From Flavobacteriales bacterium UBA1494 (GTDB lineage: Bacteria; Bacteroidota; Bacteroidia; Flavobacteriales_E; Vicingaceae), in the NCBI GenBank assembly GCA_905182175.1, contig CAJJAT010000015.1, positions 124,001-188,000 of the forward strand: a DNA stretch of 64,000 bases. Direction: 5' to 3'. Below are positions 42,489 through 46,805 of this stretch, piece by piece. Below the pieces are notes generated by a model that was not told the DNA's origin, searched no databases, and saw nothing but the letters and a program-made list of their open reading frames with translations. Made by a program: the position numbers and the translations under genes. Each line of letters starts with the position of its first letter. Position 1 is the first letter of the stretch.

Positions 42489-42896
42489 TTAAACCTTTTT
42501 TTCTTGGCACAACTCCACTAGCACACCACCGGTTGATTTAGGATGCAAAAAGGCGATTCTCTTATTGTCTGCTCCATCCTTTGGTGTCAAATGTATCAAA
42601 TCGAAGCCCTCCCCTTTCAATCGCTCTAATTCTACCTCTATGTCGTTCACATCATATGCTATATGATGAATCCCTTCTCCCTTTTTTTCAATAAACTTTG
42701 CAATCGCACTGTCAGGCTTTGTCGCTTCTAATAGTTCAATTTTGCTTTCTCCTATTTGAAAAAACATTGTCGACACTCCTTCGCTTTCTACTATTTCAGT
42801 TTTGTAGGCAGGTTTCCCTAACAATGCCTCGTACATTTTAGCAGACTTTTCAATGCTTTTCACTGCAATTCCTAAATGTTCTATTTTGTTTAGCAT
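42489..42896 (-). CDS. mce: Methylmalonyl-CoA epimerase
   Basis: This metal-dependent enzyme interconverts the R and S forms of methylmalonyl-CoA in the propionate/succinate pathway. The 135-residue glyoxalase-fold protein shows the metal ligands His7 (IEHLGIAV), His78 (GEGIHHIAYDV) and Glu128 (GVLVELCQEK), plus FLHPKSTGG near the C-terminus. The length is normal. It follows a terminator hairpin and probably has its own transcript. No methylmalonyl-CoA mutase gene is in the window. Confidence 0.93.
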   Translation of the reverse strand: MLNKIEHLGIAVKSIEKSAKMYEALLGKPAYKTEIVESEGVSTMFFQIGESKIELLEATKPDSAIAKFIEKKGEGIHHIAYDVNDIEVELERLKGEGFDLIHLTPKDGADNKRIAFLHPKSTGGVLVELCQEKKV

Positions 42897-42956: not shown

Positions 42957-43751
42957 TTACTTAAACTGTACTGTTTCTGTTTTATTATCAAAACTAATGT
43001 AATATGTTCCTTTCTCAAGTGTAGTAATGTCTGCGGTTTGTCCGTATCCTCTTTTTACAATGGTTCCAAATCGATCGTAAATTTCATACATTGTTGCCCC
43101 ACCTTTAAAGTCAACCGAACCTTTAAATTTATCTGACCCTAAAGAAATTTCCGGCGAAGAAGACATATATTTTGCTACCCTAGAATATCGAGGTTTGTTG
43201 GTGTAGTCAACTTGCTTCGTTCTAAATTTGTTCTCTCCGCTGTGTGGTGTAATTTTGAACTCATAACTGAACACCCCAGGTATTCCATGGCCGCTAACCT
43301 CTCCAACTTTTACCCACTTATTCCATCTAAATTGCTCAACAATGTAATCTAACTTTCCATTCTCGTTATCAACCGTCCAGCCAAACAGCCCGTCTTTGCT
43401 AACGGAGGCTTTAGAGTTATTAAATGTACTTTTTGGCTTCAACACCTCAGCATTTAATACCTCAGGTGCGCAATCGTCTTTGTGTTTTATGTTAACAATT
43501 ACTTTATCTCCAATTTTTAATCCTTGGTTCCCAAAGTCTATTTCGAATGCAGATTGATTTACTTCGTCTGGTGAAAGTTTGCCGTTTATGGTTACTTCAA
43601 ACACACAGAAACCAACTCCTGCACCACCAAATGGATTTTTAACGAAAATGTTTTTTCCCATATAATTGCCCTCAAGAACAATAACACCGGCGCTTGCAAT
43701 ACCGCAAAAACCTAGCAACATAGTGAGTGTGAAAAGCTTAATTCGTTTCAT
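42957..43751 (-). CDS. Secreted protein with probable T9SS type A sorting domain
   Basis: A 264-residue exported protein with a signal peptide (LFTLTMLLGFCGIASAG). The mature part is beta-rich (NYMGKNIFVKNPFGGAGVGF, KIGDKVIVNIKHKDDC) with paired Cys residues and a fibronectin-like middle (YIVEQFRWNKWVKVGEV). The last ~50 residues (GGATMYEIYDRFGTIVKRGY, LEKGTYYISFDNKTETVQFK) match the pattern of T9SS C-terminal sorting domains, so it is probably displayed on or released from the cell surface. The binding partner or enzymatic role is unknown. Transcribed alone, ending in a strong hairpin. Confidence 0.8.
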   Translation of the reverse strand: MKRIKLFTLTMLLGFCGIASAGVIVLEGNYMGKNIFVKNPFGGAGVGFCVFEVTINGKLSPDEVNQSAFEIDFGNQGLKIGDKVIVNIKHKDDCAPEVLNAEVLKPKSTFNNSKASVSKDGLFGWTVDNENGKLDYIVEQFRWNKWVKVGEVSGHGIPGVFSYEFKITPHSGENKFRTKQVDYTNKPRYSRVAKYMSSSPEISLGSDKFKGSVDFKGGATMYEIYDRFGTIVKRGYGQTADITTLEKGTYYISFDNKTETVQFK

Positions 43752-43888: not shown

Positions 43889-45424
43889 TTACTGTTTCGC
43901 TGCCTCCAATTTGTTTTTTAATTCTCCTATTCTCCTTTCTTTTTCAGGTTGCCTCCTCATTTGAGAGCTCTTAGTGAAATACTTATGACCTCCTAAAAAC
44001 CCAATGTTCATTTCAACCCATTGCAGTGGATTGTCTTCTAATTTTCCAAATTCAACCAGTTCCTGTCTGAGTGTTTCTGCAATCGCATAAAAGTCATTTC
44101 TGCCCAAATAATCCAAATCAGAATCGCACATTATTTGCTCTAAATGATTTTGAGGATTTTGTGGCATTTTAGTCGCTTCAATCAGTCGAATCACTTGGTC
44201 AATTTGCTCTTCTGTATATCCAAAATTTGGCAACATTTCTTTTGCTAAATTAGCTCCAATAGGTTCATTACTTTCGTAGGAGTCAATAAACCCTGCATCG
44301 TGATAAAGCGCAGCAGTTTTGAGCAAGTACAGGTCTTCTCCTTTTACCCCTTCCCAAATTGCTAATCGCTCCACTGCTTCACAAACATCCTTCGTATGAT
44401 GAATACCGTGATAATGGAGCCCTTGAGGTAAATCACCGGCCAACCTTTTAATAATATATTTTTCAGCATTTTTATAATTGATGTTACTGTATAACTTCAA
44501 ATTTACGTAGTGCCAGAAAGCATCATTCGGAGTTATTTCATCATCATTTTCAGATAGTTCAGTCTTAACTCCGTGCACAAAATACATATCTATTTCACCC
44601 TTATCCTTCGCTTTAATCTTTCCTCTGTATTCTGTAGTAAAAAACTCCGAAACGGCTTCGTATGTAGTTTCCGATATATTAACCTTTCCTATTTCGCCAC
44701 TAGACTCTATCCGCGAAGCCACATTTACGGTGTCTCCCCAAATATCATATGCGAACCTTTTAATACCTACAACTCCTGCTATAAGAGCACCTGAATGCAA
44801 TCCAATTCTTAAATCCCAAGCTTTTTCCCCTAACGCTTCTTTTTGAAGCTTCATTTCCTTCATCGCTCGCTGAATATCTAAAGCAGCTAGTGTTGTATCT
44901 ATAGCATTGCTTTTATTTCGAATTGGAACTCCACCTGCTGCCATGTAGGCATCGCCGATTGTCTTTATTTTTTCAACATTATACTTCTCTACGATTTCAT
45001 CGAATTTTATGAAATAACTGTCGAGTTGTGCTACAAGGTCCTCGGGTTTGTAATCCTCTGCCAACTTTGTAAATCCTTTAAAGTCTGCAAACATTACCGT
45101 GGAGGACCTGTATTTTCGAGCCTTAGCCTTTCCCTTATTTTTCAACTCATCAGCCATTTCTCGAGGAAGAATATTTAGTAGAAGCTTTTCTGTTTTCGCT
45201 TTTTCTTGCTCCAGCATCCGCTTTTGCTTTTCTACCTGCTCTTTTTGCTTTATAATTTGAATTGTGCGCAACTTTACTTGAGACTCAAGTAAATCTTTTT
45301 GTTTCTGAATACGAATAATTCTACTCCTATATAATGCATACAGCGCAATTACTGCTGATAAGAGCACAATAATGTCCACCCAAATGGAAGAAAAAATAAA
45401 TCCTACAAATACTGTCCCTATCAT
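43889..45424 (-). CDS. Predicted adenylate cyclase fused to an HD-domain phosphohydrolase
   Basis: A 511-residue membrane protein. One or two N-terminal helices (residues about 5-33) lead into a long coiled coil (about 35-95, ending EKLLLNILPREMADEL). A class III cyclase domain follows at about 105-290: metal ligands Asp114 (MFADFKGFTKL) and Asp158 (KTIGDAYMAAGG), base-selecting Lys154 and Asp227 (YDIWGDTVNVASRIES) as in adenylate cyclases, and transition-state Asn234 and Arg238. An HD domain occupies about 305-480 with HYHGIHHTKDV, LYHDAGFI (His375-Asp376) and a later CDSDLDYLG. Related Bacteroidota cyclases carry a large sensor before the coiled coil; this one starts almost at the membrane helix. 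Its ATG overlaps the stop of the upstream decayed gene. Nucleotide choice is inferred, not tested. Confidence 0.88.
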   Translation of the reverse strand: MIGTVFVGFIFSSIWVDIIVLLSAVIALYALYRSRIIRIQKQKDLLESQVKLRTIQIIKQKEQVEKQKRMLEQEKAKTEKLLLNILPREMADELKNKGKAKARKYRSSTVMFADFKGFTKLAEDYKPEDLVAQLDSYFIKFDEIVEKYNVEKIKTIGDAYMAAGGVPIRNKSNAIDTTLAALDIQRAMKEMKLQKEALGEKAWDLRIGLHSGALIAGVVGIKRFAYDIWGDTVNVASRIESSGEIGKVNISETTYEAVSEFFTTEYRGKIKAKDKGEIDMYFVHGVKTELSENDDEITPNDAFWHYVNLKLYSNINYKNAEKYIIKRLAGDLPQGLHYHGIHHTKDVCEAVERLAIWEGVKGEDLYLLKTAALYHDAGFIDSYESNEPIGANLAKEMLPNFGYTEEQIDQVIRLIEATKMPQNPQNHLEQIMCDSDLDYLGRNDFYAIAETLRQELVEFGKLEDNPLQWVEMNIGFLGGHKYFTKSSQMRRQPEKERRIGELKNKLEAAKQ

Positions 45425-46805
45425 TCGTTTTTTATAAGTTTAACTGCCGTTATTCCACTTGATGCATCATCTTCATTATCAAAATGTTGTTTTTTACAAT
45501 CAACCACCGGATTTAATTCGCCATAGTAGTTCATTATTAGTCATCTGATTTCAACCCTTGCGAGATTAAAAATGCAATTTCATTGTTGGTTCTTCCTTTC
45601 GATAGTTTCTGATTATACTCTAACGTACCTCGTTTATCTGTATACGAATGAATCTCGACCTTAACAGGCTGTACAGTAGCTGTTTTCAGCAAAGCTGTTT
45701 AGCCTAGTTTTTGAACCGGTGTTTCGTTTCACAGTATCGAACTTATAGTATAACGGAGACTCATCTAACTCAATTTTTTTCTTGTCAAAATATATAACTT
45801 TTGATAACCAATTTCATACTCTATAAAAATAATGTGCTCATTAACAATAAGATTTTTAAATTTAGATCTTCCGCCATCATTTTTGATTGTTTTATCTAAA
45901 ATATTTTTTGGAGATACGAAGAATAATTCATTTTCATCTTTACCGCAGCTAGGATGATCTGTATTATATGAATCACTATTGAATGGTAACTCTTTTAATT
46001 CTATCCACTTACCCTCTTTGTATTCTCCTTCGCAGAGCTTCATCCTGTTTATAAAGTCTTTCTCTCTTGAATCATCATTAATTCTCATAATAATGCACTT
46101 TGACTGATCTTCGCTAACCGTCATGGGTTCATCGCAGTAATCACTATTTAATTTCCATTTCGCCTCCAAAAACAATGCATCGTTCTTTAAAATTACCATC
46201 GTATCTTATTCGTAAACATTCATGTATGCAAAACAATTCCAAGAAAAAGATTCAGGTGAGTTGTAATTTTTTTCCCTGTTTGAAGTAATGTAGTATTTGT
46301 CATGAAAAGCAATCAGGCCATATTCAGCTTTTGCGGAATTTAATCCTTCTCCCACCACTACAATACCTTTTTTAGCCGATTTTTTCAACAAGCTTGCCTC
46401 ATACATATTCTTTATCAGTAAATTAGCTAAAACTCTATTCTGTAATTTTGTTGCAAAATTTTCAAACTGATTTTTTGTGGCGGCCAATTTTCCATTTGCT
46501 CGAGGAGTTTGACCAACGTTTAAATGATCCTCTGCTGTAGCATAAATAGAATTAACTAGTGGTGTGTAAAACGTTTCAGCTTGATTGTATCTGTTGATTT
46601 TCCAGTAGGAGTTAGCAATGTACTTTCCGCGTACATGTGCATTCGCATATTCTGCATAAAGTTTCCTAAATAGCTCTATCGCTCCGTTGTACTCGCTTAC
46701 TTCATACTTTTTTTTGGACCGTTCTATTCTTTTATCATTTTGGCGAGCAAACGCACCTAGACTTAAAAGAATCGTTATAAGAAGTATAGAACTATTTTTT
46801 AACAA
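45421..46805 (-). pseudogene. Decayed TPR/PD40/OmpA protein (PorE-like architecture)
   Basis: Ordered fragments match an OmpA-family protein with TPR and PD40 repeats, the architecture of T9SS component PorE and its paralogues. They include a signal peptide (SSILLITILLSLGAFARQ), TPRs (YEVSEYNGAIELFRKLYAEY), a GLNSAKAEYGLIAFHD PD40 start, a second frame from 46199 with PD40-like segments (YNTDHPSCGKDENELFFVSP), an OmpA start DESPLYYKFDT, then in another frame KVEIHSYTDKRGTLEYNQKL and GRTNNEIAFLISQGL. A final YGELNPVVDCKKQHFDN ends ILIKNE-like before TGA. Intact members are far longer, so internal deletions occurred besides stops and frameshifts. The final stop overlaps the cyclase start (ATGA), a relic of an operon. 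Confidence 0.82.

Follow-up and report, generated by a model that had tools for sequence, protein, structure and literature searches.

How does a bacterial protein work that carries a nucleotide cyclase and an HD phosphohydrolase domain in the same chain, and that begins directly at its membrane helix, with nothing in front of it to receive a signal? This question is raised by an open reading frame in a 64,000-nucleotide stretch of the genome of Flavobacteriales bacterium UBA1494, referred to here as the window. To our knowledge, cAMP signalling in Bacteroidota has been little studied. What is new in the analysis presented here is a predicted phosphodiesterase-like fold for the HD domain, the derived loss of a sensor, an operon context involving type IX secretion parts, and active-site changes limited to one clade.

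Gene and architecture

The gene starts with ATG and runs for 511 codons with no internal stop (Table 1). Its frame is kept in 12 orthologues with 75-88% identity, from seven genera including that of the window, which excludes a chance open reading frame. The original prediction of a cyclase fused to an HD domain in one membrane protein is confirmed by the reading frame, by Pfam and by hydropathy, and the protein does start right at its membrane helix: the best 19-residue Kyte-Doolittle mean (2.43) begins at residue 10. This helix occupies the position of the one that follows the Y_Y_Y domain in longer relatives and is followed by a stretch rich in Arg and Lys. In the full-length AlphaFold2 model (mean pLDDT 88.8) a helix spans residues 14-85.

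Table 1. Features of the cyclase-HD locus (window coordinates).
Feature	Coordinates	Strand	Basis or remark
Whole gene, from membrane helix and coiled coil to class III cyclase and phosphodiesterase-like HD domain	43889..45424	-	511 aa
Hydrophobic membrane helix, residues ~10-33	45326..45397	-	hydropathy; alignment with long forms
Coiled-coil signalling helix, residues ~34-85	45170..45325	-	secondary structure of the model
Class III nucleotide cyclase domain, residues 102-285	44570..45121	-	contains D114, K154, D158, D227, N234, R238
R238 codon, transition-state arginine	44711..44713	-	
HD domain, residues 301-511	43892..44524	-	predicted phosphodiesterase-like fold
N473 codon, HD domain	44006..44008	-	
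Remnant of broken PorE-like TPR/PD40/OmpA gene	45424..46754	-	tblastn with intact relative
PorP/SprF-like remnant, 27 codons	46841..46921	-	tblastn

An N-terminus hidden by a frame or assembly error was considered and rejected, as the frames upstream hold PorE-like remnants and stops, with no sensor; the alignment, in which the 12 orthologues begin near the start of the window protein, also speaks against it. Between the window protein and the other short forms described below, dN, used alone because dS was saturated, is 0.06-0.20 in the cyclase and HD domains, 0.05-0.13 in the slowly changing coiled coil, but 0.33-0.97 over residues 1-40. The low values in both domains point to purifying selection on each of them.

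The cyclase domain

Pfam Guanylate_cyc matches residues 102-285 (E 7e-51). The catalytic residues that had been named from the sequence are each at their expected position: the two metal-binding aspartates D114 and D158, the transition-state residues N234 and R238, and the ATP-selecting pair K154/D227. The best solved structural match of the cyclase model is 5oyh (Z 26.8; 1.4 Å over 182 residues), a rhodopsin cyclase converted to ATP for which the roles of the residues have been described (PMC5967339). Within the aligned ranges, D114, K154, D158, D227 and R238 correspond to its D457, E497K, D501, C566D and R577. On its residues and on a predicted model with the cyclase fold, this half is predicted to be an ATP-type class III adenylate cyclase.

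A second class III cyclase fragment lies elsewhere in the same genome (contig 12, 3961-4326). It matches only family positions 61-179 and has four in-frame stops, and appears to be a decayed cyclase gene.

Distribution of the cyclase-HD fusion

The fusion is not peculiar to this protein: a single match across both domains was found in at least 50 of 346 genomes sampled from the class. It is not rare, and is common in the class. The shared core carries different input domains (Reg_prop/Y_Y_Y, TPR or a response-regulator receiver), an N-terminal region of GAF-like appearance with no Pfam match, or none. Two genomes encode the HD domain separately, in a gene of 192-193 aa overlapping the 3' end of a gene for a Y_Y_Y cyclase (L080, L081), and related HD domains are also found on their own or joined to PycTM, the Pycsar effector membrane domain. 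No published description of this bacterial fusion was found in a literature search that took in only a minority of the subscription journals.

The PycTM-HD fusions are found at L088 (1080-2285), L090 (1926-3182) and L089 (2148-3335), with PycTM matched by scan in the first two and recognised by sequence resemblance in the third. In these proteins, Glu or Asn replaces the Gln found at the position of residue 473 in the family.

The HD domain

The Pfam HD match (residues 341-436, E 1.7e-4) is barely above the cut-off. The His/His-Asp/Asp set that had been predicted is present as H343, H375-D376 and D434/D436, together with H339 and E387. None of these seven residues varies among the 51 homologues, at identities down to 26%, which argues for catalysis; D346 is kept in 46 of the 51. 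On this invariant ligand set and on the structure predicted for the domain folded alone with the 51 homologues (pLDDT 94.4), the metal site is intact, so that the structural check suggested beforehand, which looked for an incomplete site, did not refute the prediction.

Structural comparison places this model with the class I cyclic-nucleotide phosphodiesterases (PDEs). The best 50 entries returned by VIA-align are all class I PDEs, including the PDE domain of the choanoflagellate protein RhoPDE, with Z of 16.6-17.6 and a fit of about 3 Å over 195-202 of the 211 residues, so that the predicted model has the fold of the whole catalytic domain. Eight conserved residues of the metal pocket have been listed for class I PDEs (PMC5617230), six of which are present here by motif spacing; the His of HDxxH (F379 here) and the His of ExxH (G390 here) are absent. 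The domain is therefore described as one predicted to fold like class I PDEs and to share most of their site and, because two site histidines are missing despite the fold, it is not filed as a member of the class. Pfam PDEase_I gives only a weak match in 7 of 51 members (best E 2.4e-4), below the gathering score, and no PDEase_I sequence above the cut-off was found for profile comparison in 296 genomes of the phylum. A search for phage copies of the domain returned a single weak partial match.

The main alternative is an HD domain of the YpgQ/YedJ type, working as a nucleotide pyrophosphohydrolase or another phosphohydrolase, perhaps on linear nucleotides in the vicinity of the cyclase, and not as a cyclic-nucleotide phosphodiesterase. 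Sequence-profile searches of the PDB return YedJ-like HD proteins first (2pq7, E 3e-8; yedJ, E 5e-6), with PDEs following at about 0.01; the NTP pyrophosphohydrolase YpgQ leads Foldseek by E-value (1.4e-3); folds of the HD superfamily resemble one another; and the H-x3-H pair also occurs in YpgQ (PMC8177086). However, YpgQ is not among the 50 whole-domain matches mentioned above, the Foldseek TM-score is higher for PDE5 (0.67 vs 0.62), with several class I PDEs above YpgQ, and the steady linkage of the domain to PycTM and to cyclases of several input types points to cyclic nucleotides. Taking all of this into account, the alternative ranks second and is considered rather unlikely.

Returning to the phosphodiesterase-like reading, the family shows a Q473-x-x-F476 pattern (N473 in the window) resembling the purine-binding Gln and the Phe clamp of PDEs. 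This pattern is a suggestion that Q473 could be the base-binding glutamine; a search with a C-terminal sub-profile, aimed at equating residue 473 with the PDE glutamine, gave chance matches only.

Loss of the sensor

A short form of the protein (509-521 aa) occurs in 13 genomes from seven genera within the family of the window, and no further member was found among the 46 genomes of that family. The long forms of the same family have 1264-1321 aa, with Reg_prop and Y_Y_Y domains. A tree built on the shared core places all 13 short forms in a single clade (SH-aLRT 99) within the long forms, with long forms as its sister (support 100), and only one change is needed. Thus, the tree rules out that the short form is a lone oddity, and it indicates instead a derived loss of a sensor of about 780 aa in one ancestor of the seven genera. 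When a second family (f20) is added, in which six genomes have a form of 523-544 aa and six a form of about 1300 aa, two independent sensor losses are obtained, both of which leave the membrane helix and the coil in place.

Transfer of the sensor to a separate gene was discarded, as no open reading frame in the 13 short-form loci fetched matches the long sensor. Neither the upstream sequence nor the operon encodes the periplasmic Reg_prop/Y_Y_Y sensor, and the window genome and G001-G003 contain no intact Y_Y_Y domain. It had been proposed that the input of this protein was either missing or supplied by a partner. The first part stands, with absence of the sensor as a derived loss; as to the second, the genome holds no intact Y_Y_Y partner, and the likely partner, in the PorE/PorP-like operon described below, is broken in the window genome.

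A 112-aa frame with a stop (contig 27, 9035-9208) contains the genome's sole Y_Y_Y domain and is probably what remains of a decayed sensor gene.

The upstream operon

In both long and short relatives, the usual gene order is a type B CTD protein (with a CHU_C domain), a PorP/SprF protein, a PorE-like protein and the cyclase-HD protein. The PorE-like protein, with TPR, PD40 and OmpA domains, is intact in relatives, and the end of its gene often lies no more than a few bases from the start of the cyclase gene, with an ATGA overlap in several of them. In the window, it has been reduced to a remnant comprising the frames 46206-46805 and 45765-46199 plus frameshifted pieces; the PorP-like gene has also decayed (Table 1), and the type B CTD gene was not found at the locus by tblastn. 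The cyclase gene is intact despite the decay of these neighbours. The PorE-like gene is also partial in G001 and G002, and the operon is intact in other genera and, within the window's own genus, in G003 and G004. Elsewhere in the window genome there are 14 genes of the PorP family above the cut-off, so type IX parts have not been lost in general.

In Porphyromonas gingivalis, PorE, bound to peptidoglycan, forms a surface complex with PorP and type B CTD proteins (PMC9143113). Taken together with the gene order, this suggests that such a surface complex could be the input of the cyclase-HD protein, a connection from surface proteins to cyclic nucleotides that can be tested.

Two further observations concern the surroundings of the gene. 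In G002, a short frame (L051, 7457-7882) seems to begin as a different secreted protein and to end in the final 80 codons of the PorE-like gene, with a junction as if made by deletion. Downstream of the cyclase gene, two genes hold their position across genera: one (42957-43751) for a putatively secreted product whose type IX sorting tail is weak, the other (42489-42896) for a methylmalonyl-CoA epimerase.

Active-site changes in the sensorless clade

Across 51 cyclase-HD proteins, columns at least 95% conserved elsewhere were searched for those from which most members of the window's clade depart. They are few: R238, C264, Q473 and a one-residue insertion at 466. Residue 238 is His in six of the 13 sensorless orthologues, Arg in four, Ala in two and Thr in one, so the arginine is gone in 9/13, which requires at least six changes on the tree; C264 is replaced by Thr in 13/13, and Q473 of the HD domain by Asn in 13/13. 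Outside the clade, Arg and Gln are each found in 38 of 38 proteins, including the independent sensorless clade of f20, and two control clades are unchanged at these positions, which indicates that the changes are no general result of sensor loss. Among the proteins compared, loss of R238 is limited to the window's clade, in which D114, K154, D158, D227 and N234 are fixed. The window protein itself retains R238; a near relative (L049) has His.

The loss of this arginine in most members raises the possibility that cAMP synthesis is no longer selected for in the sensorless clade. The cyclase half would then be turning into an ATP-binding regulator that gates the HD enzyme, keeping the metal and adenine contacts and losing the transition-state arginine, with the window protein as a member that still has it. 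Sensor loss would thereby have made a cyclase-phosphodiesterase into an ATP-gated phosphodiesterase, with the Gln to Asn change in the HD domain possibly touching the base contact. The repeated losses of R238 with the other five residues fixed, its presence in all other proteins, and the low dN of the cyclase domain are consistent with this proposal. On the other hand, the window protein has the full residue set and, as loss of the transition-state arginine in cyclases usually reduces activity and does not abolish it, a tuning down is as likely as a loss of function. We rank this third and consider it unlikely, both as a regulator in the making and as an ATP-gated phosphodiesterase.

That the HD domain merely senses or buffers a nucleotide, with no turnover, would fit the replacement of its conserved Gln by Asn throughout the clade, but it is improbable given that none of the 51 homologues has lost a metal ligand or the putative acid His, since purely sensory copies would be expected to lose some of them.

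Proposed mechanism

A membrane-anchored, cAMP-forming cyclase combined with an HD domain that hydrolyses cyclic nucleotides, and with no input of its own, is the most likely explanation, and one held with moderate confidence. From the architecture, residues, predicted folds, phylogeny, operon and partner decay observed here, we infer that the cyclase halves of two chains, paired by the coiled coil, would convert ATP to cAMP, and that the C-terminal HD domain, as a compact relative of class I PDEs, would hydrolyse a cyclic nucleotide, the most likely substrate being the cAMP that the same chain has formed. It had been left open whether the protein makes and destroys, or makes and senses, its product; the resemblance of the HD model to the class I PDE fold favours the first and disfavours the second. 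In the ancestor, the periplasmic Reg_prop/Y_Y_Y sensor would have balanced and so coupled the two activities, its gene standing directly behind those of the type B CTD-PorP-PorE-like surface complex. With the sensor deleted in the window's lineage, the output of the core would be set by nucleotide supply and expression. The genome encodes six proteins with a cNMP-binding fold, candidates that could receive the cyclic nucleotide.

The two independent sensor losses, one accompanied by active-site changes and the other not, amount to a natural experiment in which the behaviour of a signalling enzyme deprived of its input can be followed.

Comparison with known systems

Among the closest systems are the Reg_prop/Y_Y_Y transmembrane sensor cyclases of Bacteroidota (here the long forms L061-L075), which share the helix, coil, cyclase and HD domain at 52-70% identity and mostly the matching operon position, and differ from the window's clade in carrying the periplasmic sensor.

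YpgQ and YedJ have the same H..HD..D set and H-x3-H and give the best sequence-profile match, but they rank lower structurally over the whole domain, and the ribose-contact Arg of YpgQ has no counterpart at equal spacing in the window HD domain. Class I PDEs (PDE1-11 and RhoPDE) share the whole-domain fold, the YHxxxHxxD motif, the HD pair, E387 and the terminal Asp; the window domain differs from them in lacking the HDxxH and ExxH histidines, in falling below the PDEase_I cut-off and in being about 100 residues shorter.

With Pycsar (PycC and PycTM) there is a class III cyclase in common, and in relatives the same HD family occurs in fusions with PycTM. Identity with Pycsar was ruled out, as PycTM is absent from the genome and the neighbouring genes hold no effector.

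CAPE, a combined adenylyl cyclase with phosphodiesterase, has been described in liverworts and other streptophytes (PMC8115329) and likewise has its class III adenylyl cyclase on a single chain with a class I PDE. It differs in that it is eukaryotic, has the PDE first, in the reverse order, and contains a true member of class I, whereas the window HD is a compact PDE-like domain without two of the eight site residues. If the HD half of this common bacterial protein does have a class I PDE-like fold, the fusion would be a bacterial counterpart of the plant cyclase-phosphodiesterase.
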